Assembly: GCF_026339875.1 (NCBI RefSeq)
Contig: NZ_JAPEPZ010000011.1
Span: forward strand, 1 to 15,367
From: Streptomyces sp. NBC_01571
Lineage (GTDB): Bacteria > Actinomycetota > Actinomycetes > Streptomycetales > Streptomycetaceae
Direction: 5' to 3'
DNA length: 15,367 nt
The translations under genes were made by a program, and so were the position numbers. The stretch's first letter is position 1. Each line of letters opens with the position of its first letter. The notes under the pieces are model-generated. The model searched no databases. It saw nothing but the letters and a program-made list of their open reading frames with translations, and was not told where the DNA came from. Of the stretch, positions 366-11,565 are shown one piece after another.

Positions 366-528
366 GGGGGGCACGGGGGGCACGGGGGGCACGGGCTCTA
401 TAACCGCAGGTCAGGAGGGTGTTTCCCGTGCCCCCCGGCGCGGCCGTGCCCCCGTGGCCGGGGGGCACGGGGGGCAGGACCGGGGGGCACGGCCCTGTCG
501 GGGGGGCACGGGGGCCGTGGTGCCCCCC
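366..528. repeat. Iteron-like array of GGGGGGCAC 9-mers in both orientations
   Basis: Exact copies of GGGGGGCAC start at 366, 375 and 384 (tandem) and at 460, 482 and 501. A variant ending in CAG starts at 469. Inverted copies GTGCCCCCC lie at 428-436 and 520-528, with a partial one at 446-453. The block is non-coding and lies between the hairpin-rich end and the first gene. Short direct repeats in a gene-free segment suggest iterons of a replication origin. The runs of six G also allow G-quadruplex formation on the plus strand. Function is inferred. Confidence 0.6.
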
Positions 529-1088: not shown

Positions 1089-1120
1089 TGACGTCGTGGC
1101 GTCACGACGCTACGACGTCA
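1089..1120. promoter_or_regulatory. Octamer cluster A (YGRCGYCR x4)
   Basis: Four contiguous 8-bp units fit the self-complementary consensus YGRCGYCR with one deviation. The stretch 1088-1121 is also a 16+2+16 bp inverted repeat with a single mismatch. It lies between the parAB terminator and the promoter of the 631-1002 gene. It is the most symmetrical of six such clusters in the window and a candidate binding site for the RHH protein encoded at 1187-1606. Confidence 0.7.
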
Positions 1121-1130
1121 CATACATGGC

Positions 1131-1162
1131 AAAACCCCTGCCAGACAAGGGCCTGGCAGGGG
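1131..1162 (-). terminator. Rho-independent terminator of parA-RHH operon
   Basis: CCCCTGCCAG (1135-1144) and CTGGCAGGGG (1153-1162) form a perfect 10-bp stem with an 8-nt loop. On the minus strand it is followed by TTTT (1131-1134). It sits about 25 bp past the stop of the 1187-1606 gene. Confidence 0.8.
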
Positions 1163-1186
1163 CACAGACGGCCGCAGGGCCGCCCG

Positions 1187-1606
1187 CTACGGCTTCAGCC
1201 GCCGTAGGAGCTTGCGCCGTACCGCGTCGTCCTCGCGGGCGAGCCGGATCAGCTCCCGGTAGACCTCGGCCTTGTCCAGCCGGGTCCGCCGGGCGTCGTC
1301 GCGCAGGCCGAGGATGAACCGGTCCACGTCGCTGGCCTCCTCGGGTTCCAGCCGGACCGTGTGGGCCACGGCGTCCTTCACGGCCGGGGCCGGGCGCCGG
1401 CCACCCCGCGACCTCCCCGGCCTGGAAGGAGCGGGCGCCGAAGGCGCTTCCTTCTGTTCTTCCTCCTGGACGTCGGGCGCGTCCTCCTGGCGGTCCGCCC
1501 CCTGGTCCTTCTCGGCCTCACGGCGCCGGAGATCCTGGAGGGTCTTCCAGTCGCCCGTCAGGCCGCCCATGTCCGGCGGGGGCAGAGAGCTGCGGGAGGC
1601 GTTCAC
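1187..1606 (-). CDS. Ribbon-helix-helix partition partner (ParB-like)
   Basis: This 139-residue protein is probably the centromere-binding partner of ParA. The start is the GTG at 1606, which overlaps the parA stop as GTGA and so indicates translational coupling; the longer in-frame extension would lie inside parA. Residues 1-75 are a charged, Pro/Ala/Arg-rich, probably disordered arm, the type of N-terminal tail that RHH partners use to stimulate ParA ATPase. Residues 81-125 fit a ribbon-helix-helix fold: a beta strand (AHTVRL), a helix from about 88 to 104 and a second helix from about 110 to 125 (DKAEVYRELIRLA). It has no classic ParB N-terminal or HTH domain. Expected targets are the YGRCGYCR octamer clusters, one of which lies upstream of this operon. 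The fold assignment is by pattern and the binding sites are inferred. Confidence 0.7.
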   Translation of the reverse strand: MNASRSSLPPPDMGGLTGDWKTLQDLRRREAEKDQGADRQEDAPDVQEEEQKEAPSAPAPSRPGRSRGGRRPAPAVKDAVAHTVRLEPEEASDVDRFILGLRDDARRTRLDKAEVYRELIRLAREDDAVRRKLLRRLKP

Positions 1607-2382
1607 GCGGCCAGCACCACCTTCGCCAGGTCCCGGTACCAGTCGGCGGCCTCGGACTTGGGCGCGTACTCCAGGACGGACTTCTTCTCGCGCCACGCCT
1701 TGCGGATGTCGGTCCGCTTGCGGATCTCCGCGATGACGGGCGGCTCACCGAGGCCGCGGAACGCGTCCAGCATGGAACTGACGATCTCGCCGTCGCGCAT
1801 GTCGAACCGGCTCGGGACCAGGCCCAGGATGTCGATGTCCGTGCGCATGTCGGCGCACAGGATGCCGACCTGACGCAGGAGCAGACGCAGGGCGCGGATG
1901 CTGGAGTCCTCGGCCTCGACCGGGATCACGAGTCCGGAGCGCTTGCCGGGGCGCCGGCGCGCGGCCATCAGCGCGCACTCGGTCCCGATGCCGAGCGAGG
2001 GCGGGGCATCGAGCACCCCCGCGTCGAAGTCCTCCTCGAAGTGCTCCAGGAGGTGAGCCAGCCGCATCTCCCGGTTGGTCGCGGCGTACAGCCCCTTGTC
2101 GAGCAGGAACATGTCCAGGGAGGTCGGCAGGACCCACAGGTTCGGCCGGTACTCCACCAGGAGCTGGTGGGGGTCGCCGGTCCACTCCCCCAGAACCCAG
2201 CCCTTCATGGTCCGGCCCTCGGCAGCCTCGGGCACGCCCAAAGCCTCGGTCAGGTGACCTTGGGGGTCCCAGTCCACCAGGAGCGTGCGGCGGCCGTACT
2301 CGGCCAGGGCCGCGCCCAGGTTGATGGAGTTCGCCGTCTTGCCGACCCCACCCTTCTGGTTCGTCATGCTGTAGATGTCCAC
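1603..2382 (-). CDS. parA: ParA-family partition ATPase
   Basis: This 259-residue Walker-type ATPase drives plasmid segregation. Visible motifs are the deviant Walker A KGGVGKT (residues 10-16, with the signature first lysine), Walker A' VDWDPQG (36-42) and Walker B GVLDAPP (122-128, D125). The short N-terminus without an HTH matches type Ib ParA proteins, which normally pair with small RHH partners as here. I chose GTG 2382, six residues before the first ATG (2367). A GGGAGG motif is 15 nt upstream, too far for ideal use. A TACGCT hexamer (2389-2394 on the minus strand) ends 6 nt before the GTG, so a leaderless transcript is possible. The gene is followed by its partner with a 4-bp overlap and preceded by octamer cluster B, suggesting autoregulation. 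Confidence 0.93.
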   Translation of the reverse strand: MDIYSMTNQKGGVGKTANSINLGAALAEYGRRTLLVDWDPQGHLTEALGVPEAAEGRTMKGWVLGEWTGDPHQLLVEYRPNLWVLPTSLDMFLLDKGLYAATNREMRLAHLLEHFEEDFDAGVLDAPPSLGIGTECALMAARRRPGKRSGLVIPVEAEDSSIRALRLLLRQVGILCADMRTDIDILGLVPSRFDMRDGEIVSSMLDAFRGLGEPPVIAEIRKRTDIRKAWREKKSVLEYAPKSEAADWYRDLAKVVLAA

Positions 2383-2417
2383 GGCGGCAGCGTAGAGCCT
2401 CCCGGCCCGCCCCGTGG

Positions 2418-2457
2418 TGACGCCACGACGCCACAGCCGCACGACGCCACGACGCGC
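2418..2457. promoter_or_regulatory. Octamer cluster B upstream of parA
   Basis: Five contiguous octamers follow the YGRCGYCR pattern. Units 1, 2 and 4 match it exactly, and units 3 and 5 are degenerate. The segment 2411-2437 is identical over 27 bp to 10343-10369 at cluster C. It lies 35-75 bp upstream of the parA GTG, over or just above where a -35 box would be, which is a fitting operator position for RHH-mediated autorepression and for a centromere. Confidence 0.7.
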
Positions 2458-2470
2458 CCTGTGCGGCCCC

Positions 2471-2573
2471 CTGTCGCGCTCGGACCAGGCCCGGGGGTTC
2501 CGGCCCGTCTGCCCAGCTCACAGCACGCGACAGCACCGCACACGACAGGCCCGCGCGACAGGCCGCGCGACAG
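2471..2573. repeat. RCGACAG repeats upstream of parA
   Basis: CGACAG occurs in direct orientation at 2528, 2543, 2556 and 2568 (spacing 15, 13 and 12 bp), in the broader context GCGYGACAGGC. One inverted copy, CTGTCGCG, lies at 2471-2478. The same motif family recurs at the 3' end of traB (14508-14635). CACGCGACAG is present exactly in both places. This is a candidate protein-binding array of unknown role. Confidence 0.5.
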
Positions 2574-2612
2574 CCGAGTGCCCAGCACCGAGGGTCGATG
2601 CTGGGCACTCGG
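2574..2612 (-). terminator. Terminator of the replication operon
   Basis: CCGAGTGCCCAGCA (2574-2587) and its exact complement (2599-2612) form a 14-bp perfect stem with an 11-nt loop, 10 bp past the stop of the 2622-2960 gene. No T-tract is present. The hairpin could act in either direction. Confidence 0.7.
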
Positions 2613-2621
2613 CGAGCCGTT

Positions 2622-2960
2622 CTAGCCGCCGTTGGAGAAGCTGAAACCCTTCTCCGCTCGCTGGATCTCCTCGAAGTTTAGGCCGTTGGTCTCGGCCCAC
2701 TCTTCGAGGTCGTCTGCGGTTTCGTACACCTCGGAAACCTCAGCGATCCGGTGCCAGGGGAAGAACGCCGCGCCGACCTGGAAGCTCCTCGACTCGTCCC
2801 CGTCGTTCTTGAACACGGTCAGTTCCCAGCAACCGGTGAGCCAGAGCCCGTGCTCTCGGAACTTGAGGTACTTGCCGCGGACGTCGATGCCTTCGGCGAC
2901 GCCGTCCTCCCTGGTGCTGTCGGTGAACGTGATCGTGTAGTGCGGTTCGGAGGCAGCCAT
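2622..2960 (-). CDS. Hypothetical protein, last gene of replication operon
   Basis: This is a 112-residue acidic soluble protein of unrecognised family. The ATG at 2960 has an AAAGGG ribosome binding site (2968-2973). The first 60 residues look beta-rich (YTITFTDST, KYLKFRE, CWELTVFKN), followed by FPWHRIAEVSEVYE and an acidic helix (TADDLEEWAE). A single cysteine, C44, is present and there are no membrane segments. It begins 29 bp after the 2990-3562 gene and ends at a strong hairpin, so it is probably cotranscribed with the replication protein. The compact strand-rich N-terminus would suit a small binding domain, but no function can be assigned. Confidence 0.75.
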   Translation of the reverse strand: MAASEPHYTITFTDSTREDGVAEGIDVRGKYLKFREHGLWLTGCWELTVFKNDGDESRSFQVGAAFFPWHRIAEVSEVYETADDLEEWAETNGLNFEEIQRAEKGFSFSNGG

Positions 2961-2989
2961 GCTGATGCCCTTTCAGTTCTGAGGACGGG

Positions 2990-3562
2990 TCAGTAGTCCA
3001 CGCTGTGGATCGTGGACGCCGAGACGTTGATCAGGCCGCCCGGGATCCCGTACGCGTCCGCGATCAACGGAATGGCGACGTCGTAGTCGGGTCCGCCCTT
3101 GGCCTCCATGGCGTCGATGAACGTCTTCACGTCCGACCCGTGCAGCGTGCCGGACATCGTGCCCGACCACTCGGTATCCGAGATCACCCAGTCACCGTCC
3201 GCGCTCACGTGAAGGAACGGCGGGTAGACCCGCTCCGGCCGCTCCCCGGGCCCGGCCGGACCGCCCTCACCCTCGCCCTCCTCGCCGGGAGCCTCGGGAG
3301 GCGCCGCCTCCTCGGCCGGGGCCGAGGGAGCCGAGGGCGCGGACGGAGCAGACGGAGCCGAGGGAGCCTCGGGTGCCGGGGCCTCCTTCTTCTTCCCCCG
3401 GCCGAACAGCCGCCCGAGCAGACCGCCGCGCTTCTTCCCGCCCTCCTCAGCCGGGGCCGGGGTCGGCTCGGGCCGAGGCGCCGGCGCCGGGGTCGGGGTC
3501 GGCTCTGGGCGCGGGCCCTCCTCGCGGTCCTTGCCCCTGCCGAACTTCCACCACTTGGCCAT
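2990..3562 (-). CDS. Hypothetical protein with Ala-Pro-Ser linker and compact C-terminal domain
   Basis: This 190-residue protein starts 3 bp after the replication gene ends, and its ribosome binding site (CTCCCCCC complement, 3569-3576) lies inside that gene. It has a basic N-terminus (MAKWWKFGRGK), a Pro/Ala/Glu-rich stretch (about 15-42), a very basic patch (GGKKRGGLLGRLFGRGKKK, 41-59) and a low-complexity tract with five APS repeats (about 66-82). An acidic glycine-rich spacer follows, then a folded-looking C-terminal domain (about 112-190, from VYPPFLHVSADGDW to SASTIHSVDY). The architecture resembles a tethered adaptor: a nucleic-acid or membrane-binding basic segment, a flexible arm and a small binding domain. 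The family was not recognised. Tight coupling suggests that it acts with the replication protein. Confidence 0.75.
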   Translation of the reverse strand: MAKWWKFGRGKDREEGPRPEPTPTPAPAPRPEPTPAPAEEGGKKRGGLLGRLFGRGKKKEAPAPEAPSAPSAPSAPSAPSAPAEEAAPPEAPGEEGEGEGGPAGPGERPERVYPPFLHVSADGDWVISDTEWSGTMSGTLHGSDVKTFIDAMEAKGGPDYDVAIPLIADAYGIPGGLINVSASTIHSVDY

Positions 3563-3565
3563 GGG

Positions 3566-6500
3566 TCACTCCCCCCGCTGGTTCAGGTACCGGTCCAGTG
3601 CGCCGTGGGCGCCGGTCTTGTGCTCCGGGGCGTCCAGGAGCGGAAGGAGCTCGGCCATGGGTGCCTGGCCCTCGATGCTCCAGGAGCGGCCCGAGGTGCC
3701 GATCTCCATGGACGCGGGCTTGGCCGCCATCGGATCGGCGTCGTCGCTCACGTAGGTGGCGGCGTCCACGTAGACGCTCAGCGGGAGACGGCCGTCCTCC
3801 CGGGCGAACTTGGCCAGACCCCGGTAGAGGTTCGCCGTCGCGTGCGCGATCAGCATGTGCGCCCAGTCGGGCCGGAAGTACACGTCCTTGGTGAAGTCGC
3901 CGCCGGTCGCGTGGTCGGTCTTGTGCTCCCGCCGGGAGAGGTAGCCGCGGAAGCTCTGGTAGATCCGGCCGTGCACCTGCTTGGCCCACTTCGCTCCGGG
4001 CCGTCCGTCCTCCATGGCCGCCACGATCCGGTTGCGGCTGGTGGACATCAGCTTGTACATGCGGGACAGGGCCGCCGGGGAGGTCTCCCAGTGCCAGGAC
4101 TCCAGCACCTTCGGCGTCCACTCCTGGTACTCATCCATCAGGAGCTCCACGCTCGGGGTCGGCAGCCAATAGCCGCCCTCGGGCATCTCGCGGAACTGGA
4201 AGTCCGGCAGGCCCGGCAGACCGGTGCCGGGGACGTCGGCCAGCCGCCAGTACCCGGCCATCCCCTTGTCGAACGGCGTGCCCTCGCCGCCGTGGGTCGG
4301 CTCCCCGATGCCGAGCTTGGTCGGCCCGTACGCGCCGAGCCAGGCCGCCGTCTTGTCGTACCGGTGCAGCCAGCCGCCCGCCCGCTCGGCCTCGGTCGGC
4401 TCGCGGTGCCACTGCTGCGGGACCATCAGCGGCACCATGCGCAGACCCTGCGCGGCCGGGGGCACGGCGCCCTCGCGCACGGCCTGGCACAGGAACTCGG
4501 TCTTGCCCTTCCCGCCGGCGAAGTCCTCGCCGGTCTGGTTCGGGCCTTGGAAGTACGGCACGACCTTGGGCCGCTCCTGGGTGCCGTGCAGCGTGGACAT
4601 CAGGTAGACCATCAGCGCGTCCAGGAGGACTTCCGGGGTCTCGGCCCCGCCCCAGCCTCCCCGGCCGGGCTGCTTGGCCTTGTCGAACCGGTGCTCATAG
4701 GCGGGCACGGCCACGACCACCCGGCGGTCCCGTGCGGTCTCGTCGGCCAGGACCAGCGTCATCCATGCCGTGATCCCGGCCGGGTGCAGCTCGGCCACGG
4801 GCGACCCGGCCGATGGGATCGCCCACGGGTGCGCCACGGGGTTCATCGCCCCCGGCGGCTTCACCGAGTCTTCCTCGCCCTTGCCCTCGGCCGCCCGGGT
4901 CTGGGCCATGCCCAGCTTCCGCCGCTCCTCGAACGAGGGCAGGCCCATGGCCTCCATGGCCTCCTGGTGGACCCAGAGCGTCTTGAGCCCGTACGCGGCC
5001 ACCAGGGCTGGCACGTCGTCCACCGAGCGGGGCACGGGCACCTTCACCGGCTCCCGGTTGGGCAGATGCAGCACCCCGTTGCCCAGGACGCCGAACCGGG
5101 TCGCGGATAGGGTGCGGCCGATCGCCCGCGCCTCGAGGGAGGCGAACGAGCGGTCCGTCACGCGCTCGGCGGCCTCGGGGAAGACGATCCGGGGCGGAGC
5201 CGTGGGCCGGGGTGGAGCCTGCACGGTCCTTGTGACGTCACGACGCCGTGACGCTGCGGCGTCGGCATCCTGGGCCTGAACTGCGGCGGCAGGGTTCCGG
5301 TAGGTCTCCATGGCCCGGTTCTCGGCCGCCACGGTGGCCGAGTCGTCGCCGGGTACCGGAGCCTGGTCCGGGGTCACCTGCGGCGGCGTCTCGCGGTCGG
5401 TGAAGGCTTCCTGGGCCTTGGCTGGGTCGAAGATGTACGCCCGTCCCGGCAGCGCGTCGCGCAGCTCCCGGGTGGCGTGCTTGGACGCCAGCTTGGTCTT
5501 CTCGGTCGTCTTCAGCACGCCGCGCCGCTTCAGCTCCTGGAGGCCCGGCACGGGCGAGTCGATGCCGCCCGCCTTCACCAGCTCGGCCAGCGTCGCCACG
5601 TACACGTAGACCTGGCCCTGGTGGTAGTAGCCCAGCACCCGCCGGGGCTTGAACTCCTGGCCAGCCCAGACTTCCGGAGCCAGGATCGTGGACTGGACCC
5701 ACGCGGCGGGCTCCTGGACGATGGCGCCGGCCACCTTCTCCCACAGGATCTGTCCCGGGGTCAGGTGGTGCTCGATGGCCTCACCGAGGATGCGCGGGAG
5801 CTCCCGGCGGGCGTCCTCCTCGGCCATCGCGCCGAGCTCGGGCATCCCCAGGAGCTCCGCGAGCATGTACGCGCCGACGCACCACGCGGACAGGATGCGG
5901 GCCAGGGTCAGCGGGATGCCGCCGTTGTTCCGGGTCTCCTCGGTCGCCAGACGGTCCACGATCTCCGTGTGCAGCTCCCGCCAGGTCGCCATCCGCTCGG
6001 CCGTGAAGAATCCGCCGTCCCGTGCCCACACCAGCGGCCAGCCGTGGAAGCGCGAGGCCAGGTCGAACGCCTCGGCCGTCGCGGGTGCGGCGGTGAAGAA
6101 CGGGCCGTTCAACTGGAGGAGGCGGGAGGCCAGGGACTCCACCTGGCCCTGGCGGTGCAGCGACTCGTTTGAGGAGGTGACGAAGATGCTGTGCCAGGTG
6201 CCGACCGACTTCACGAGCGCGTTGCCCTTGCCCAGCCGCCCGCGCTTGGCGCCCGCCACGATCCGCTGGAACAGCTTCTCCAGCTCGGGCAGCGACAGGG
6301 CCGAGGAGGACGTCTCCTCGCGGCACATCGGCAGGTAGCGGGCCTGAATCAGGATCTCGGGCAGGGACAGGCCCGTGTTGTTCATCGAGCCGAACAGCTC
6401 GCCGGTCTCCTCGCTCGGGTCGCCCATCAGCGCGCACATGACCTGCTGCACGCTCGACTTACCGATCTGCCCGCCGCCGGTCAGGTTCAGGATGTGCGCC

Positions 6501-7156
6501 GGGACGCCGTGCAGGCTGGAGATCAGCGGGCCCGCGAACATCGCGGACAGGACCAGCGTCGTGCGGGGCGACTGCGTGGCCAGGTGCATGACCCGGGCCC
6601 ACCCCTTGCGGGCAGCCTCCTGGTCCAGCTCGCGCACCTTGAGGTAGCCGTACTCCTGGGCGTCGGCGTCGGGGAGTGTCAGGCCGCCGGCCGCGTCCTT
6701 CACCGGCAGGGCCGGGACCTCCTCGGCCGCCATGACGTCCTCACCGAAGATCTGCGCGTAGGCGTGCCGCGCATCGGGGGTGGTGGGGCGCTGTCTGCCT
6801 GCGCGGTCGGCCCAGGTGCCGTCCAGCACTTCCTCGGCCGAGACGATCCGCGGACCCTCCTCGGTCTGGATCTGGTACGCGATCTTCGTGTGCCGCCGGT
6901 CGGACATGCGGTAGGTGATCCGGCCCATGACCACGGGCACGGTGCCCACGGGCAGAGCCGGGGCGTCCTTGCTCGCGCGGTGCAGAAGCATCCGGTCCAC
7001 GGGCCGGAAGAACCAGCCCGCCTTCAGGCCCGCGATCGGCCGAGCGCCGACAGGGGTCCCTTCCCGTTCGAGGTTCGAGACCGTCCCGCCCGTGCCCCGC
7101 TTCTGCCGGGGTACCTCTTCCGCAGACTCTGAGGTCTGCGGGTGCTGCTGATTCAC
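3566..7156 (-). CDS. Putative replication protein: DUF927-like ATPase joined to a polymerase-B-like region
   Basis: This 1196-residue protein starts at GTG 7156 behind AGAAGGG. Residues 185-355 form an ATPase module: P-loop GGGQIGKSS (227-235, K233), a Walker B-like YLPMCREE (E280/E281), a sensor-like VTSSNES (N330) and a finger-like SRLLQL (R345), in the order seen in DUF927/SF3-type helicases. Residues 600-670 are a linker containing octamer cluster D. The C-terminal 500 residues hold RYDKTAAWL (D934), KQVHGRIYQ (K1059 and Y1066, spaced as in the family-B motif Kx3NSxYG) and VYVDAAT (D1131), followed by SDD (1137-1139). The A-to-C spacing of 197 residues is like that of protein-primed family-B polymerases, but the second motif C aspartate is alanine. 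It is the only strong replication candidate here. The ATPase is fairly secure; the polymerase link is inference. Confidence 0.8.
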   Translation of the reverse strand: MNQQHPQTSESAEEVPRQKRGTGGTVSNLEREGTPVGARPIAGLKAGWFFRPVDRMLLHRASKDAPALPVGTVPVVMGRITYRMSDRRHTKIAYQIQTEEGPRIVSAEEVLDGTWADRAGRQRPTTPDARHAYAQIFGEDVMAAEEVPALPVKDAAGGLTLPDADAQEYGYLKVRELDQEAARKGWARVMHLATQSPRTTLVLSAMFAGPLISSLHGVPAHILNLTGGGQIGKSSVQQVMCALMGDPSEETGELFGSMNNTGLSLPEILIQARYLPMCREETSSSALSLPELEKLFQRIVAGAKRGRLGKGNALVKSVGTWHSIFVTSSNESLHRQGQVESLASRLLQLNGPFFTAAPATAEAFDLASRFHGWPLVWARDGGFFTAERMATWRELHTEIVDRLATEETRNNGGIPLTLARILSAWCVGAYMLAELLGMPELGAMAEEDARRELPRILGEAIEHHLTPGQILWEKVAGAIVQEPAAWVQSTILAPEVWAGQEFKPRRVLGYYHQGQVYVYVATLAELVKAGGIDSPVPGLQELKRRGVLKTTEKTKLASKHATRELRDALPGRAYIFDPAKAQEAFTDRETPPQVTPDQAPVPGDDSATVAAENRAMETYRNPAAAVQAQDADAAASRRRDVTRTVQAPPRPTAPPRIVFPEAAERVTDRSFASLEARAIGRTLSATRFGVLGNGVLHLPNREPVKVPVPRSVDDVPALVAAYGLKTLWVHQEAMEAMGLPSFEERRKLGMAQTRAAEGKGEEDSVKPPGAMNPVAHPWAIPSAGSPVAELHPAGITAWMTLVLADETARDRRVVVAVPAYEHRFDKAKQPGRGGWGGAETPEVLLDALMVYLMSTLHGTQERPKVVPYFQGPNQTGEDFAGGKGKTEFLCQAVREGAVPPAAQGLRMVPLMVPQQWHREPTEAERAGGWLHRYDKTAAWLGAYGPTKLGIGEPTHGGEGTPFDKGMAGYWRLADVPGTGLPGLPDFQFREMPEGGYWLPTPSVELLMDEYQEWTPKVLESWHWETSPAALSRMYKLMSTSRNRIVAAMEDGRPGAKWAKQVHGRIYQSFRGYLSRREHKTDHATGGDFTKDVYFRPDWAHMLIAHATANLYRGLAKFAREDGRLPLSVYVDAATYVSDDADPMAAKPASMEIGTSGRSWSIEGQAPMAELLPLLDAPEHKTGAHGALDRYLNQRGE
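5233..5264. promoter_or_regulatory. Octamer cluster D inside the replication gene
   Basis: Four contiguous YGRCGYCR octamers lie within the inter-domain linker of the 3566-7156 gene, where they encode DAAASRRRDVT at about residues 632-642. Cluster E in the spdB-like gene is read as DAATLRRRDVT in the same frame. Confidence 0.65.
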
Positions 7157-7161
7157 GTGTG

Positions 7162-7198
7162 CCCTTCTGGGCCACCGCCAGAGTGATCGCCAGAAGGG
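7162..7198 (-). promoter_or_regulatory. Leader hairpin masking the ribosome binding site of the replication gene
   Basis: On the minus strand CCCTTCTGG (complement of 7190-7198) pairs perfectly with CCAGAAGGG (complement of 7162-7170), which includes the AGAAGGG ribosome binding site of the GTG at 7156. The stem is 9 bp with a 19-nt loop and falls within the predicted transcript. It could limit initiator synthesis. Confidence 0.55.
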
Positions 7199-7224
7199 GG
7201 GAGGAGAAATCTCCCCACCTCTGC

Positions 7225-7253
7225 CTTACACTCGGCAATGACTGCTAGGTCAA
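7225..7253 (-). promoter_or_regulatory. Promoter of the replication operon
   Basis: On the minus strand a -35 TTGACC (7248-7253) and a -10 TGTAAG (7225-7230) are separated by 17 bp. Transcription would start near 7218, giving a leader of about 60 nt that contains the hairpin at 7162-7198 and a further GGAGA/TCTCC inverted repeat near 7203-7214. Confidence 0.65.
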
Positions 7254-7328
7254 CGCGAACCCGTTCCGGGACTTCGACTCTGCTTGAGGCTTCGATTCCT
7301 CATGCAGAGCCCGGTGCGGGTTTTCGCG
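7254..7328. other. Long imperfect intergenic hairpin upstream of the replication promoter
   Basis: Nested complementary blocks AACCCG/CGGGTT, CCGGG/CCCGG, CTCTGC/GCAGAG and TGAGG/CCTCA fold into one hairpin about 75 nt long, flanked by CGCG on both sides. The apical arm with TTCGATT recalls a tRNA T-arm, but no full tRNA fits. The hairpin lies between the 7408-7635 gene and the -35 box of the replication promoter. It may end transcription of the former, or be a protein site or a remnant RNA. Confidence 0.45.
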
Positions 7329-7407
7329 TTTGCGGATCTTGTTTTTGGTTTTGTGCAGCTTACGCCGCGTACCGGACACCTCTACGCGCGGTAGGGACAC
7401 CACTCGG

Positions 7408-7635
7408 TCAGGTGGCGTTCGGAGCCTTGCCACGCAGGATGCTCAGGATCTGGGCCAAGGCTTCCTGGTGCTGTGTGAGTGCGGCCTTCATCTGCTCCTG
7501 GCCCTTCTCCAGCCGGTCGAGCGACGCGGTGTGGTTCGCCAGGGCGATGGTGTGCTCGGTCTGCTTGTCGATCACCCGCTGGAGCTTCTCGTTCAGGATG
7601 CGGGCCATTTCCTGGCTGATCGGGTCTTCCGGCAT
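7408..7635 (-). CDS. Small coiled-coil protein
   Basis: This 75-residue protein has an ATG at 7635 and a strong GGGGAGGA ribosome binding site. Residues 5-70 are almost wholly helical, with hydrophobic residues at heptad-like spacing (ILNEKLQRVIDKQTEHTIAL... LDRLEKGQEQMKAAL), so a coiled-coil oligomer is likely. No catalytic motif is seen. Octamer cluster F lies immediately upstream, between this gene and the repressor gene that precedes it by about 54 bp. The gene may be cotranscribed with the repressor or expressed from a site controlled by the octamer-binding protein. It points toward the replication operon, so a copy-control or adaptor role is conceivable. The family was not recognised. 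Confidence 0.7.
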   Translation of the reverse strand: MPEDPISQEMARILNEKLQRVIDKQTEHTIALANHTASLDRLEKGQEQMKAALTQHQEALAQILSILRGKAPNAT

Positions 7636-7655
7636 CTGGGCTTTCCTCCCCTTGG

Positions 7656-7687
7656 TGGCGTCATGACGTCGTGGGTTCGTGACGTCC
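7656..7687. promoter_or_regulatory. Octamer cluster F
   Basis: Of four contiguous octamers, two match YGRCGYCR fully, the fourth differs only at its last base, and the third (TGGGTTCG) is degenerate. They lie directly between the ribosome binding site of the 7408-7635 gene and the stop codon of the GntR gene, with which they nearly abut. Confidence 0.6.
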
Positions 7688-7688
7688 T

Positions 7689-8483
7689 CTACTGCTTTGG
7701 TGTGACCGGTTCAACGGGCCACTGGGCTGACTCATCGCGTCGCAGCTCACTGACCAGCTCTACACGGTCGGCGGGGATGACGCGGGATGTCACCTCGATG
7801 ATCTGTTCAGTCTGGGCGGACTTGCCCGCCCAAAGCAGCTCGAAGATGGGTGCCTCAGTGCTGATGTCCAGGAGCGTGGCTTCTTCGCGGCTGGGCAAGC
7901 GACCCCGGCCGTATTCGGTCCAGGAGATTGGACCGTGGCCAGCCTCTTCCAGCCGGTCCAGATAGCCGCCTGGCCCGGTGTTCGGCTCGGCTGCTTGCGG
8001 CGCGTCCCGGACGACTTCGGCGGACAACCAGGTGTCAACGATCTGGAATGGGGGCTCCCCTGCGGGAGAGGTCACACGGCGACGTCGAAGGACGGCGATG
8101 CCGGGCTCTATCCCGAGGACTTCCGCGATCCGCTCAGGGATGGGCTCGTAACTGGTCACTGGCCTGCCGTGGGTGTCCCAGGGTTCGTCAGGGGAGGACG
8201 CCGCAGGGCCGACATACCCGCGTCGAGGGTCGCGATAGATGAGCTGTCCGCGGCTGATCCGACGTCGCTGCACTCGCCAGTCCAGGACTCGGATGCCGGC
8301 CTTTTTGACGACCCTGATCAGCCCCTCGCGCTCCAGCACCCCGAGTGCGGAGCTGATGACTCCGCGCCCGACGCCGTAGGTATCCGTGAGTTCGGCATAC
8401 GTCGGCAGCTTGGCGCCGATTGCGTACTCACCCTCATGGATGCGCGCTCGCAGATCATCCGCGACCTGCTCATAACGGGGCAT
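7689..8483 (-). CDS. GntR/HutC-family repressor (KorSA/TraR type) of the transfer operon
   Basis: This 264-residue regulator has an N-terminal winged helix-turn-helix (residues 3-67, with KLPTYAELTDTYGVGRGVISSALGVLEREG as the recognition region) and a C-terminal ligand-binding UTRA-like domain (about 90-250). The ATG at 8483 follows a GGGAGG ribosome binding site; the longer in-frame extension would run into the operator DNA and is rejected. In Streptomyces conjugative plasmids, repressors of this class bind palindromes in front of tra genes and prevent lethal unregulated TraB expression. Two GTACCGGTAC palindromes and a half-site lie in the divergent region 8525-8609, so it very probably represses the plus-strand transfer operon and itself. 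The UTRA ligand is unknown. Confidence 0.9.
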   Translation of the reverse strand: MPRYEQVADDLRARIHEGEYAIGAKLPTYAELTDTYGVGRGVISSALGVLEREGLIRVVKKAGIRVLDWRVQRRRISRGQLIYRDPRRGYVGPAASSPDEPWDTHGRPVTSYEPIPERIAEVLGIEPGIAVLRRRRVTSPAGEPPFQIVDTWLSAEVVRDAPQAAEPNTGPGGYLDRLEEAGHGPISWTEYGRGRLPSREEATLLDISTEAPIFELLWAGKSAQTEQIIEVTSRVIPADRVELVSELRRDESAQWPVEPVTPKQ

Positions 8484-8524
8484 GTGCCCTCCCTTCCTCA
8501 GTACAGGAGTGATCCTCTCACAGG

Positions 8525-8544
8525 AAACAGTACCGGTACTGTTT
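8525..8544. promoter_or_regulatory. Operator O1, perfect palindrome
   Basis: AAACAGTACCGGTACTGTTT is a 20-bp perfect palindrome between the divergent GntR and sigma-factor genes. It overlaps the first two bases of the plus-strand -35 box, so occupancy should block the transfer promoter. Confidence 0.8.
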
Positions 8545-8571
8545 GACACGATGCCAGCCGGAGGGCAATAT
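8543..8571 (+). promoter_or_regulatory. Promoter of the transfer operon
   Basis: TTGACA (8543-8548, a perfect -35) and CAATAT (8566-8571, a weak -10) are separated by 17 bp. The promoter is bracketed by operators O1 and O2, leaving a 5' leader of about 130 nt before the sigma-factor gene. Confidence 0.65.
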
Positions 8572-8585
8572 CAGTACCGGTACAG
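8572..8585. promoter_or_regulatory. Operator O2 and downstream half-site
   Basis: CAGTACCGGTACAG carries the same GTACCGGTAC core as O1 and directly follows the -10 box. A further half-site, GCAGTACCG, lies at 8601-8609. With O1, the spacing gives the repressor sites on both sides of the promoter. Confidence 0.7.
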
Positions 8586-8706
8586 CTTGCCTCCATGGAA
8601 GCAGTACCGACCTGTGCACGAAAGCGGCCCCAGGGTTGGCGTCCTACCGCCGCCCAGGGGCCTGAGATCGACACCCGTTCTGACCCACAGAAGGGACCGA
8701 TCCTTC

Positions 8707-9219
8707 ATGGATCGTATCGACGCTTCGCAGCTCTCCGCAGAAGCCGCGGAACGCCTTGACAGGCTGTTCCGCCTCTACTCCGGCCGGGTCCTGGCCTACG
8801 CCGTGACCCGCGCCAAGTGCCCCGCCGACGCCGCCGACATCGCCGGTGACGCCTGGGTGCTGGCCTGCCGGTACATCAGCGGCCTCCGGGCTGACGACGA
8901 CCACGCCATGCCGTGGCTCTCGTCGGTCGTCCGGACCGCGGCCCGCAACCACTACCGCCCTCGCCGCGCGAGTGAGCAGCCCCGGGACTGGACGGACGCC
9001 GTGGCGTCCTTCTCTCTCCAGGCCGCCCCGCCGGCCTATGCGGACGTGCTCGCCTTCGCCGCGCTCACGCCCCGCCAAGCCGCCGTCTGGAAGCTCAAGT
9101 CCCAGGGCTTGAGTGACCGCCGGATCGAGCTTCGCCTCGGTCGGTCGGAGACCGCGATCCGCAAGCGCAAGCACGCGGGTGCCCGCCGTCTCCGCTCCTC
9201 CATGGCGCTGGCCCGGTGA
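8707..9219 (+). CDS. ECF-like RNA polymerase sigma factor
   Basis: This 170-residue protein starts at ATG 8707 after AGAAGGGA. Region 2 covers about 15-85 (DRLFRLYSGRVLAYAVTRAK... DIAGDAWVLACR), including the core-binding helix and a -10 recognition segment with AARNHYR. Region 4 covers about 118-165 (LTPRQAAVWKLKSQGLSDRRIELRLGRSETAIRKRKHAGARRLR), a clear sigma-4 HTH. The length is typical of minimal ECF proteins, and no anti-sigma gene is adjacent. It is the first gene behind the repressor-controlled promoter and is followed 6 bp later by small coupled genes. It may switch on further transfer promoters once repression is lifted, but it could instead act as a non-sigma DNA-binding regulator. 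Confidence 0.8.
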   Translation: MDRIDASQLSAEAAERLDRLFRLYSGRVLAYAVTRAKCPADAADIAGDAWVLACRYISGLRADDDHAMPWLSSVVRTAARNHYRPRRASEQPRDWTDAVASFSLQAAPPAYADVLAFAALTPRQAAVWKLKSQGLSDRRIELRLGRSETAIRKRKHAGARRLRSSMALAR

Positions 9220-9225
9220 TGGGCC

Positions 9226-9327
9226 GTGAACGTTCTGCTCTCCGTGCTGCGGCACATGTGGCAGTGCTCCGGCTGCGGGGCTTGGATCGTCGCGGACTCG
9301 AACCCCGGAAAGTGCGGGCAGTGCTGA
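9226..9327 (+). CDS. 33-residue zinc-ribbon-like microprotein
   Basis: A GTG at 9226 opens a 33-residue frame whose second half is WQCSGCGAWIVADSNPGKCGQC: two CxxC pairs 13 residues apart, as in small zinc ribbons. Its TGA (9325-9327) overlaps the ATG of the next gene by one base, and it starts 6 bp after the sigma-factor stop. This perfect tiling into the operon is the main reason to accept so short a frame. An internal ATG at 9256 would give a 23-residue form with no ribosome binding site. No function is assigned. Confidence 0.5.
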   Translation: MNVLLSVLRHMWQCSGCGAWIVADSNPGKCGQC

Positions 9328-9542
9328 TGTCCCTCTTCCGCCGGACCGAGAAGGCCGCCGACGACTTCGCTCGTACCGGGCGACTCCTGGAGGGACTGGA
9401 GGCCGCGTACGCCGCGCGTACCGGTGACCCGGCCTCCGACCTTCCGCTCACCGACTTCGAGGATGTCGTCATCGAGGGCGCGATGCCGCTGCCCGGCGAG
9501 ACGTACCCGCCCGCCGGCCACTCGTTCCCGAGGAGGGGCTGA
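9327..9542 (+). CDS. Small hypothetical protein of the spread operon
   Basis: This is a 71-residue protein. I prefer ATG 9327, which overlaps the stop of the preceding frame (TGATG), over the longer in-frame start at 9216, which would overlap both the sigma-factor stop and the whole microprotein. The N-terminal half (MSLFRRTEKAADDFARTGRLLEGLEAAYAA) is a probable amphipathic helix. The rest is acidic and proline-rich without known motifs (LPLTDFEDVVIEGAMPLPGE). No membrane segment or cysteine is present. Its place suggests a transfer accessory role only by context. Confidence 0.6.
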   Translation: MSLFRRTEKAADDFARTGRLLEGLEAAYAARTGDPASDLPLTDFEDVVIEGAMPLPGETYPPAGHSFPRRG

Positions 9543-9544
9543 CC

Positions 9545-9865
9545 ATGGCCAAGCCCAACACCAAGCCGTTCGACCGCCAGATCCGCGAGGCCGAGTCCAA
9601 GCTCCAGCGCGTCCGCAACGGCGAGATCAGCGCCCTGTCCGGCGGTGAACAGGCCCGCGCCTTCCTGCACATCGGCCGTGGCGTCCGCCGGGTGATCCGT
9701 GGCAAGTCCACGTCCGGCCCGGACCGAGCCGTGGACCGCGTGTTCGCGGACGCCGAGGAGCGGATTGGCGCCGAACTTCAGGCCGCCAGGACCGCCCGCC
9801 AGGCCGTCATCTCCGAGGCCGCCACCGCCAAGGTCGCCAAGCGCGCCGAATCGAAGTGGTGGTGA
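9545..9865 (+). CDS. Small basic helical protein
   Basis: This 106-residue protein starts at ATG 9545, 2 bp after the previous stop, with AGGAGGGG (9531-9538) as ribosome binding site. It is strongly helical and basic (FDRQIREAESKLQRVRNGEIS..., RGVRRVIRGK, then ERIGAELQAARTARQAV...), ending in KRAESKWW. Heptad-like leucine and isoleucine spacing suggests a helical hairpin or coiled coil. No catalytic residues are seen. Genes of this size and character are common in the spd region of Streptomyces plasmids, but the family was not recognised. Confidence 0.75.
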   Translation: MAKPNTKPFDRQIREAESKLQRVRNGEISALSGGEQARAFLHIGRGVRRVIRGKSTSGPDRAVDRVFADAEERIGAELQAARTARQAVISEAATAKVAKRAESKWW

Positions 9866-9867
9866 CC

Positions 9868-10035
9868 ATGGCGAGCGAGAAGGCCCTGAACCCGCCGAAG
9901 GGCGAGTGCCGCCAGTGCTGGCTTCACGCCTACGACAGCCGCGAGCAGCACCAGCACCTGGCCCCGCGCGAGGACTGCCCGGCGTGTGTGTCCCACATGG
10001 GCGGTCGCTGCCCCGACTCGATGATCGTGCGGTGA
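9868..10035 (+). CDS. Cysteine-rich small protein, pRL2-8-like (tentative)
   Basis: This 55-residue protein is tiled between neighbours (2 bp after the previous stop, 4 bp before the next start). It has CRQC (14-17) and CPAC (37-40) pairs with histidines between and after them (H20, H28, H30, H43) and a last cysteine C48, a probable zinc-binding fold. The pattern PPKGECRQCWLHAYD...CPACVSHM recalls from memory the small 'pRL2-8'-type proteins of Streptomyces plasmids; this assignment is uncertain. The role in transfer is unknown. Confidence 0.65.
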   Translation: MASEKALNPPKGECRQCWLHAYDSREQHQHLAPREDCPACVSHMGGRCPDSMIVR

Positions 10036-10039
10036 CGGC

Positions 10040-10339
10040 ATGAGGACCCTGATTGCCCTCCCCGTGTTCTACGCCGTCTCCCGTGCGCCGCAGCTCCTGG
10101 CCGCGCTCGTCGGGCTCGGCCTGGCCCTCGGGACCCGCGCCGCCGGCGCCTCCCCGCTGGGCATGGTCGCGGTCGCCCTCCTCGGCCTCCTGGCCGTCCG
10201 GCTCGCCTGCGCCCTGCCGGTCCTGCGCCTGCCCAAGGGTGGACGCCGCGCCGTGCGGGACGCGTGTTGGCAGGCCGCCGACGCCGTGGCCGACTGGGCC
10301 CGCTGGACCTACGTCCCCTCCCCCGACGACTCCCACTGA
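10040..10339 (+). CDS. Small membrane protein of the spread region
   Basis: This 99-residue protein starts at ATG 10040. Two hydrophobic segments are visible: about 3-33 (IALPVFYAVSRAPQLLAALVGLGLALG) and about 39-63 (PLGMVAVALLGLLAVRLACALPVL). A short basic cytoplasmic loop (LPKGGRRAVRDAC) and a helical tail rich in tryptophan (WQAADAVADWARWTY) follow. Small membrane proteins next to spdB are typical of Streptomyces plasmid spread modules, where they assist passage of plasmid DNA between mycelial compartments. The exact family was not identified. Confidence 0.7.
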   Translation: MRTLIALPVFYAVSRAPQLLAALVGLGLALGTRAAGASPLGMVAVALLGLLAVRLACALPVLRLPKGGRRAVRDACWQAADAVADWARWTYVPSPDDSH

Positions 10340-10349
10340 CTCCCCGTGG

Positions 10350-10381
10350 TGACGCCACGACGCCACAGCGCCACAGCGTCA
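10350..10381. promoter_or_regulatory. Octamer cluster C upstream of spdB-like gene
   Basis: Four contiguous octamers follow the pattern: the first two match YGRCGYCR and the last two carry CAGCG in place of CGRCG. GTGGTGACGC (10346-10355) and GCGTCACCAC (10376-10385) form an outer inverted repeat. The left 27 bp (10343-10369) are identical to 2411-2437 at cluster B. The cluster ends 27 bp before the GTG start of the next gene. Confidence 0.65.
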
Positions 10382-10407
10382 CCACGGTCCCGAAAGGACA
10401 GCTCACT

Positions 10408-11565
10408 GTGAAGTTCAAGACCGAGAAGCGTTCCCGCGTCGTCCAGCACACCCGTGACGGCATCACCCACGACGTCACCGAGCCCTACGAGATCCGGACG
10501 CCCGTCATGCCGGCCGACTGGGACCAGTACGCCATCAAGGCAGCCGTCACCGTCGTCGCGCTCCTGACCGCCGTGGCGGTCGTCTGGTCCACGTACTCCA
10601 TCGGCGCCCTCCTGGACGGGGGCATGGGCTACGCCGGGGCCGCCGTGTTCGACGCCGCATGGATCGTCAACGTCCTCATGGAGTACCTGGCCCGGTTCGA
10701 CCCGGCCAAGCGGTCGTTCTCCAAGAAGGTCGGCTGGCTCCTCCTGGCCGCCACGATGGGCTCGATCTTCTGGCACGGCCTCCTGGCCGGGTCCGTCGCC
10801 CTGGGGGTCGTCGGCGCGGCCGTCTCCCTGTTCGCCAAGGTCCTCTGGATGGGGATCATGCGGTTCATCAACCGCGACCTGTCCCAGGCGGACCAGCAGT
10901 GGGTGAAGGCGGAGATCAGCCGCTCGAACGCCCAGCTCGCCATCGCAGGTGTCCGCCGCCAGGTCGCCCGTGCGGAGAACCGCGCCGCCCTGGAGCTCCT
11001 GGCCGCCGAGCAGACCCGCACCGAGGTCTCCGACTGGATGGCCACGACCGCCCCGGCCGTGGAGGTCAGCACCGCCCCGGCCGCCGTGTCCGCCGGAACG
11101 TCCACGGCATCCGCCCTCACGTCCGCCCCGGAAGGTGACGCCGCGACGCTGCGACGCCGTGACGTCACCAAGCCCGGAAACCCGCTGTTTCAGGCCCCCG
11201 CCATCCGCAAGGATGAGGACGGATATCCGGCGGATGACGAGTTCGCCCAGGTCAGCGCGACGGACAACGTGCACGCCATCCGCCCGGACGTCCGCCCCGC
11301 CCCGGAGACCACGCCCGAGCCCCCCGCCGCCGCCCACGCCGACGACGACCGGGTGCCCGAGCAGACCCCCCGCCGTCCCTCCATCGCGTCCGCCGTCCGC
11401 AAGGCCGTCCAGGACGGAGTGATGGACGCGGAGACGATCGTCCGCTCCCTCGGAGAGCGGTTCGACCGCACCGAGGACCCGAAGTTCGCGGCCACGGTCA
11501 AGCGCTACGTCCGCGAGGCCAAGCAGGAGCAGACCGACGACCAGGCCCACGGCCTTTACCTGTAG
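10408..11565 (+). CDS. spdB: SpdB-like multi-pass membrane protein (DUF2637 type)
   Basis: This 385-residue protein starts at GTG 10408 behind GAAAGGACAG. Residues 40-150 carry four hydrophobic helices: about 43-62, 73-92 (GYAGAAVFDAAWIVNVLMEYLARFD), 107-128 and 130-150. This is the layout of DUF2637/SpdB proteins, which help spread plasmid DNA through the mycelium after TraB-mediated transfer. A helical cytoplasmic segment follows (about 155-212), then a long Ala/Pro-rich disordered tail. A compact C-terminal segment (about 323-375) repeats helices and may bind DNA or a partner. Octamer cluster E lies within the tail at residues 244-254. A 16-bp-stem terminator follows the gene. Confidence 0.8.
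   Translation: MKFKTEKRSRVVQHTRDGITHDVTEPYEIRTPVMPADWDQYAIKAAVTVVALLTAVAVVWSTYSIGALLDGGMGYAGAAVFDAAWIVNVLMEYLARFDPAKRSFSKKVGWLLLAATMGSIFWHGLLAGSVALGVVGAAVSLFAKVLWMGIMRFINRDLSQADQQWVKAEISRSNAQLAIAGVRRQVARAENRAALELLAAEQTRTEVSDWMATTAPAVEVSTAPAAVSAGTSTASALTSAPEGDAATLRRRDVTKPGNPLFQAPAIRKDEDGYPADDEFAQVSATDNVHAIRPDVRPAPETTPEPPAAAHADDDRVPEQTPRRPSIASAVRKAVQDGVMDAETIVRSLGERFDRTEDPKFAATVKRYVREAKQEQTDDQAHGLYL
11136..11167. promoter_or_regulatory. Octamer cluster E inside the spdB-like gene
   Basis: All four contiguous octamers fit YGRCGYCR closely. The cluster lies in sequence encoding a disordered tail and is read DAATLRRRDVT. It is arranged in the same reading frame as cluster D in the replication gene, although the two proteins are unrelated. 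Confidence 0.65.

Follow-up and report, generated by a model that had tools for sequence, protein, structure and literature searches.

Dispersed arrays of four octamers on a Streptomyces plasmid and its relatives, a probable multi-module centromere of a ribbon-helix-helix-type partition system

Several described partition systems combine a ParA with a small ribbon-helix-helix (RHH) ParB. For the delta/omega system of pSM19035, the available portions of the sources describe an RHH ParB, contiguous short in-register units and separate parS sites overlapping promoters (PMC5016525), with six parS copies per plasmid (PMC5016525; PMC9499535). At least four contiguous heptads are needed there before the RHH ParB activates ParA, according to the accessible text of PMC9499535. 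TP228 ParF-ParG-parH and pCXC100 ParAB are outlined in the same way, as a ParA and a small RHH ParB with repeats upstream of the par operon (PMC5016525, in part), and the archaeal SegA-SegB system as a ParA relative and an RHH protein whose sites are numerous, scattered and for the most part intragenic (PMC12284271, in part). Features of all these systems recur in a stretch of DNA from Streptomyces sp. NBC_01571, hereafter the window, which comprises a whole contig of 15,367 bases (G000:C11) in a genome of 15 contigs. The window encodes a ParA and a small ParB-like protein and carries six dispersed arrays, each consisting of four contiguous octamers. Judged from sequence, these arrays are probably the centromere of a partition system of the type-I RHH kind, divided into about six modules of minimal size (four dimers each), some of which would also be operators.

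Octamer arrays in the window and in related plasmids

The earlier note on this DNA had described six clusters in strict 8-bp register at 1089, 2418, 5233, 7656, 10350 and 11136, and all six were borne out. A matrix trained on relatives only gave window peaks of at least 8 bits at exactly these places (23.8-35.4 bits), and the maximum in the reversed window was -4.4 bits. Array 1 (1089..1120; no strand is assigned to any array) lies between the parA-RHH operon and the gene at 631-1002, 10 bp upstream of a -35-like TTGCGC facing that gene. Array 2 (2418..2449), with a poor third octamer, is located 35 bp upstream of the parA start. Array 3 (5233..5264) falls within a variable stretch of the gene for a 1196-residue Rep-like protein, in codon phase 2, where it encodes the peptide ADAAASRRRDVT. 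Array 4 (7656..7687) is situated 20 bp upstream of a small coiled-coil gene and array 5 (10350..10381) 26 bp upstream of spdB. Within spdB stands array 6 (11136..11167), in codon phase 2 with the peptide GDAATLRRRDVT, adjoining the junction of two SpdB parts with different ancestry. Two of the six arrays, at 5233 and 11136, are in coding sequence, which corrects the earlier note. All four units scored positive in five of the six; the array at 2418 had three positive units, its third scoring -3.4.

Equally frequent clusters in shuffled sequence or in the host chromosome had been named as grounds for discarding the idea, and neither simulated windows nor 20 stretches of the same genome yielded them. 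Any four-unit peak of at least 14 bits occurred in 4 of 1000 first-order simulations of the window, the best at 21.1 bits, a maximum exceeded even by the weakest window array (26.2 bits with the final matrix). Those 20 stretches (399,160 bases), some of them picked because they contained a ParA gene or matched the short motif, had one place of at least 14 bits. It was a simple tandem repeat, and the stretch had been picked for that repeat.

The architecture was tabulated for 73 arrays from 12 plasmids (relatives are designated by L numbers). The table includes L114:14199 (13.2 bits), counts the second half of the L011 dimer once and excludes L114:10364 (14.2 bits), a probable chance match in a conserved Rep stretch; L010:12874 and L012:13291, with one poor unit each, were kept out of the matrix and retained in later counts. 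Mean scores for units 1-4 were 9.1, 6.7, 6.2 and 9.0 bits, and adjoining fifth units were at background (5% and 3% positive, against 3%). Four units were positive in 64 of the 73 arrays, three in eight and two in one, and a positive adjoining unit was present in five, L012:16383 having three. Since the search sets a minimum near four yet would reveal longer arrays, their rarity is informative. Of the "four or five" units given previously, four is upheld and five is not, adjoining units being at background.

The consensus YGRCGYCR of the same note proved too strict, as none of the window arrays conforms to it in all units, and the wider form is YGRNNYCR. Outer units are mostly TGRCGYCA, with a CG centre in 49 and 53 of 73 arrays, and inner units are looser (YGRNNYCR; 30 and 23 of 73). 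The flanks tend towards TSG before and CSA after the array. Of 392 genomes from the genus of the window, 42 contain an exact three-unit YGRCGYCR run and 32 the backward pattern (counted by eye); many of the matches listed resemble simple 8-bp tandem repeats, and only one contig among them (G088:C5) is also an RHH contig. The short motif by itself is not diagnostic of the system. Outside the four-unit arrays, three-unit runs numbered 2 against 1 in the reversed control at 14 bits and 0 against 0 at 18 bits, and two-unit runs 8 against 2 at 14 bits and 4 against 0 at 17 bits. Given this small excess, a few two-unit sites are possible.

Relatives were scanned at a threshold of four units and at least 14 bits. 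The ParA of the window shares 76-83% identity with those of six Streptomyces plasmids and 64% with those of four Nocardiopsis/Streptomonospora plasmids, three of which were scanned (L015, L016 and L017). Four to seven arrays per plasmid unit were present in 13 further Streptomyces-family plasmids or contigs with a parA-linked C-terminal ParB domain. Six were found in the window, L012, L013, L109 (pSniv4) and L190, seven in L010, L014, L111 and L112, five in L009, and four in L155 and L191; the 12 arrays of L011 represent two copies of one unit of six, and one of the six in L114 is probably due to chance. In L155, the most divergent, the general matrix detects four arrays and a window-trained one five, none of them in rep. 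No array of at least 14 bits was detected in L015, L016, L017, L110 or L113. The reversed-sequence control gave zero arrays in each of 17 sequences scanned both ways, and 1.5 Mb of other loci gave eight matches, every one in a copy of the window or of a relative. The matrix derives from these plasmids and may miss some family members.

Wider searches added little to this set. A ParA-alignment scan of genome contigs returned general ParA proteins at 26-37% identity, of which 80 loci were kept. The RHH-alignment search of viral contigs gave no confirmed relative, and in the phage collection the 15 matches listed of 121 showed at most 35% identity, with one further, unlisted record in the 60-80% band.

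Arrays within genes and near promoters

In the ten plasmids for which a gene table exists, 22 arrays lie within annotated genes, and most arrays are found outside genes. Two of the 22 start at the annotated spdB start in phase 1 (L010 and L111); arrays at or before the spdB start of L010, L111, L114, L190 and L191 were set apart, those covered by an open frame being in phase 1. The remaining 20 share codon phase 2 and encode peptides like GDATTSRGHDVT; the genes that contain them are rep, spdB, a recombinase gene and the gene for ParB. Five more arrays in rep or spdB of L114, L190 and L191 are in phase 2 too. Stops would arise within the array in 16 of 20 cases in phase 0, in 1 of 20 in phase 1 and in 0 of 20 in phase 2, so that stop avoidance excludes phase 0 and does not exclude phase 1. 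Synonymous recodings were generated with each plasmid's own codon usage. For 17 of the 20 arrays, which are not independent and represent four gene contexts, at most 12 of 20000 recodings scored as high, and the other three gave 504, 78 and 118; in the window, the numbers were 3 of 20000 for array 3 and 0 of 20000 for array 6. Because the intragenic arrays keep one codon phase that codon choice mostly leaves unexplained, selection acts on the DNA.

A -10-like TACGCT before parA (2389..2394, minus strand) is located 23 bp from array 2. The parA-side array lies 24-56 bp from the parA start in all ten plasmids with a gene table, and TACGCT was found downstream of it in all 11 plasmids aligned (of 14), at 10, 12, 21 or 23 bp. 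These spacings fall into two classes about one helical turn apart, and a start codon follows closely after TACGCT in plasmids with the window's ParA family. The array after the ParB gene is placed 8-11 bp upstream of TTGCGC or TTGAC(A/G) in seven of the eight plasmids aligned by eye, L114 being the exception. By sequence resemblance, TACGCT, TTGCGC and TTGAC(A/G) are promoter-like elements. A short contiguous repeat array accordingly stands near the par promoter, where it would have a centromere role, and the arrays plausibly double as operators and centromere. The arrays in rep and spdB are not simple operators.

The protein followed by the arrays and its replicon

The gene for a ParA-type Walker ATPase (1603..2382, minus strand; Pfam AAA_31, E 1.9e-30) stands upstream of that for the small ParB-like protein (1187..1606, minus strand) in one operon, with a 4-bp overlap, and the pairing is kept in relatives. 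The small protein, of 139 residues, consists of an N-terminal tail, an Arg-rich linker and an RHH-like C-terminal domain (TVRL..LDKAE..REL), and is the proposed reader of the arrays. Natural exchanges of these parts were informative. Arrays are kept in L109, L111 and L112, which have a ParA of 29-34% identity, another N-terminal tail and a C-terminal domain of 61-68% identity, and the four arrays of L155 accompany a ParA of 30% and a C-terminal domain of 49%. Arrays are absent from L015 and L016, with a ParA of 64%, a tail of 40-52% and a C-terminal domain of another kind (25-29%), as well as from L017, a third plasmid of this kind. The proposal that the arrays follow the ParA motor was rejected on these three Nocardiopsis/Streptomonospora plasmids. 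In the Rep relatives L158 and L159, neither such a C-terminal domain nor an array was found.

In all 14 plasmids or contigs where an intact parA directly precedes the coding sequence for this C-terminal domain, at least four arrays of at least 14 bits are present. In a prediction fixed before the scan, the parA-linked full-length matches L190 and L191 were expected to have arrays, and six and four were found; the C-domain-only loci L194-L198 had none, and of the loci classed as "perhaps", L192 had none and L193 one marginal match. The comparison strongly supports that array presence follows the parA-linked C-terminal domain, and not the ParA family, the N-terminal tail or Rep. It lends the same strong support to the earlier suggestion that the protein encoded at 1187-1606 reads the octamers.

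Related C-terminal domains also occur in other settings. Orphan copies in L194 (~10052-10231) and L192 (854-1018), 60-64% identical to that of the window, have neither parA nor arrays. The Kitasatospora plasmid L110 encodes two small ParB-like proteins at 17483-19069 and has no octamer arrays; a gene with a Nocardiopsis-type C-terminal domain adjoins ParA, and one with a window-type domain lies further on. Such orphan copies likely serve other sites or have lost them.

The homologue search with the small ParB-like protein returned 78 relatives, many on 13-20 kb contigs, and T83, R85, D111, K112, E114, R117 and E118 were conserved in a 76-member alignment. Sequence support for its assignment as an RHH protein, made in the earlier note, is weak. 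The profile matches were to RHH_1 (best E 0.014, in 4 of 76 homologues), a ParD antitoxin model (E 0.0036 for the L112 protein) and PHROG repressor families (E 0.015 and 0.13). AlphaFold predicted a confident C-terminal part with an extended segment followed by helices at 88-105, 112-125 and 127-137, an order that would be expected of an RHH chain. Searches of PDB sequences gave no relative, and a single fold comparison in which three chains were aligned gave no match, which says little because the chain folds as a dimer with a disordered tail. Membership of the helix-turn-helix ParB (CTPase) class of ParABS was rejected, the 139-residue protein matching no family in Pfam or NCBIfam at the cut-offs applied.

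The gene order of the window is FtsK-like Tra, SpdB, a sigma-like gene, a GntR regulator, the 1196-residue Rep, ParA and the small ParB-like protein. The same order is found in three plasmids of 15-18 kb, NBC_01260 unnamed2, NBC_01335 unnamed3 and S. niveus pSniv4, all recorded as linear, and by eye the window and pSniv4 share one nearly identical end. Genes annotated pRL2-8 are present in some relatives, and pRL2 itself is a known Streptomyces linear plasmid, assigned a telomere class of its own in the accessible part of PMC8743542. The Rep-like protein (3566..7156, minus strand) includes a DUF927 part, and its C-terminal part (~residues 866-1180) shows a 25-28% match to proteins annotated as telomere-binding from Rhodococcus plasmids, on account of which Rep may join replication helicase and telomere functions. 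In L112, an 8-mer, GAGCCACC, or its complement occurs up to nine times within 400 bp inside rep (~5400-6000), beside the array at 5536.

The small coiled-coil gene behind array 4 is located at 7408..7635 (minus strand). The SpdB-like spread protein (10408..11565, plus strand), which has array 5 in front and array 6 within, is a mosaic: its N-terminal half resembles SpdB-like proteins encoded on small plasmids of another type (up to 44-45%) and its C-terminal part the SpdB of pSniv4 and L010, and array 6 is close to the junction. The FtsK-like Tra gave a Pfam E of 0.0002, below the curated cut-off. Another 8-bp repeat, GGGGGCAC, is present near one end of the window (367-527) in six direct and three inverted copies with irregular spacing; similar blocks occur in L109 (15294-15433, 8 copies) and L191 (12860-13032, 10 copies), and eight other relatives have 0 or 1 copy. 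This block is a candidate cis-acting transfer locus (clt) or Tra recognition locus. Two palindromes around AGTACCGGTAC lie upstream of the GntR gene (~8525-8590) and are likely the GntR protein's own operators, and for this reason the GntR protein is disfavoured as a reader of the octamers.

Proposed modules, alternatives and known systems

In the mechanism proposed, ParA and the small RHH-type ParB would make up a type-I plasmid partition system. The C-terminal domain of ParB would bind each 8-bp unit as a dimer, and four dimers side by side would fill an array. About six such four-dimer modules would be spread around the replicon, in promoters, in intergenic gaps and within rep and spdB where these genes are variable. 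Each module, once filled, would be a minimal partition complex able to trigger ParA, and the modules would jointly act as one distributed centromere. Those at the promoters of parA, the 631-1002 gene, the coiled-coil gene and spdB would double as operators, tying the level of ParB to the partition and transfer genes. Arrays of four units, about six per plasmid, fit a centromere of minimal modules because ParA activation in pSM19035 needs four repeats. Put forward more tentatively is a fuller proposal, which we regard as possible: the roughly six modules may be interchangeable minimal parS sites, fixed at the four-dimer threshold for ParA even in coding stretches of a small and mostly linear plasmid, by which the plasmid is gripped at many points, and the DNA-binding half of ParB may stay with the modules as its ParA-contacting tail and ParA are exchanged. 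If so, a plasmid could change its segregation motor without rewriting its centromere.

We consider it unlikely that the arrays are operators only, with the RHH protein a plasmid-wide regulator of par, transfer and replication genes. The centromere would then lie elsewhere or be the parA-side array alone, and the intragenic arrays would be auxiliary operators acting by looping or as roadblocks. Four of the six window arrays do lie 20-86 bp upstream of genes, and array placement relative to promoter-like elements is conserved. Against this, arrays occur inside rep in 9 of 11 pRL2-like plasmids (exceptions L155 and L190) and inside spdB in 10 of 11 (L155 not settled), hundreds of bases from the gene start, and the fixed size of four units would seem to fit the pSM19035 threshold for ParA better than operators of graded strength. 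That a repeated peptide such as GDATTSRGHDVT is selected, the DNA pattern being a by-product of coding, is scarcely credible: similar peptides recur in rep, spdB, the recombinase and the ParB gene, but most arrays of the plasmids with a gene table are outside genes, and the recodings described above rarely yield the pattern.

Two further alternatives assign the octamers to other plasmid functions, and both appear very improbable. Repeats of 8 bp serve as recognition sequences (TRS/clt) in Streptomyces conjugation; an FtsK-like Tra is encoded here, and two arrays lie before or in spdB. The arrays nevertheless track the parA-linked RHH C-terminal domain, their contiguous self-complementary units would suit dimers, and the GGGGGCAC block at 367-527 suits a single clt locus better. 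Iterons read by Rep would be in keeping with the one array within rep, and rep genes of Streptomyces linear plasmids are known to contain origins. The repeats did not follow the Rep family, however: L009, L011 and L012 have arrays and an annotated primase-polymerase with an ATP-binding or VapE-like protein instead, and are not among the 40 of 58 Rep relatives listed; the Rep relatives L158 and L159 are without arrays, and L155 and L190 have Rep without an array inside.

Several observations weigh against a distributed centromere read by this ParB. The RHH fold of the small protein is weakly recognised from sequence. Twelve loci have a match to the C-terminal domain and no intact parA just upstream (L110, L113, L154, L156, L157 and L192-L198; L154 is partly masked, and L192 and L196 are short contigs). 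Eleven of these have no array, and L193, with a parA remnant, has one of 19.8 bits. The C-terminal domains of L110, L192, L193 and L194 are 60-65% identical to that of the window, like those of some array-bearing plasmids, yet arrays are absent or marginal there; the domain therefore predicts arrays solely within a par operon, and the simpler rule that it implies arrays by itself was rejected on the orphan copies. The rep genes of L155 and L190 lack an array, and in the circular group (L009, L011 and L012) most arrays are near parAB and the neighbouring recombinase region, so that "spread over the replicon" applies to the pRL2-like group. The recoding test is partly circular, seven of the ten plasmids having served to train its matrix; the six arrays of the untrained L109, L111 and L112 gave 12, 504, 78, 118, 0 and 0 of 20000.

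Among known DNA sites, the operators of MetJ are also contiguous 8-bp self-complementary units with a GACGTC core, and belong to a chromosomal metabolic repressor with no known partition role. The plasmid is not an example of the pSM19035 delta/omega system proper, in which, according to the consulted sources, 7-bp units form arrays of 7, 9 and 10 at promoters; the units here are 8 bp, four per array, and some arrays are intragenic. In the available text of PMC5016525, TP228 parH forms a single uninterrupted centromere, and for the pCXC100 site only direct repeats are mentioned, whereas several separate arrays are present here. SegB sites are given as 13-bp palindromes on a chromosome (PMC12284271, in part), in contrast to contiguous arrays of four on a plasmid. 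Two Streptomyces plasmids have other solutions, as far as the accessible text of each source extends: SCP1 ParABS has three parS sites around each of two operons (PMC13245405) and SCP2 ParA-ParT a specific parS (PMC12260392), and the CTPase ParB of SCP1 and ParT of SCP2 slide on DNA from inverted repeats, unlike the RHH arrays proposed here.

Neither multiple nor intragenic sites are new alone, since pSM19035 and SegB already have them. The combination of four-unit modules over a small plasmid, conserved in genes and kept through changes of ParA family, was not found in searches of open-licence literature, where most subscription journals are absent. Plasmid partition systems were surveyed in 2026 by searching PLSDB, with the pB171 and pSM19035 systems as RHH queries, according to the available part of PMC13245405, and with these queries a system as divergent as the present one may have been classed as unidentified. 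The intragenic arrays show cleanly how a DNA site can be accommodated in protein-coding sequence through one reading frame, and the natural part-swaps between ParA and the ParB C-terminal domain offer a ready specificity experiment. The number of parS sites that a plasmid needs, a question raised in the accessible text of PMC9499535, becomes testable by module-by-module removal. The plasmids described here further offer a natural case in which array size, nearly always four, equals the biochemical minimum for ParA activation reported there for another RHH system.

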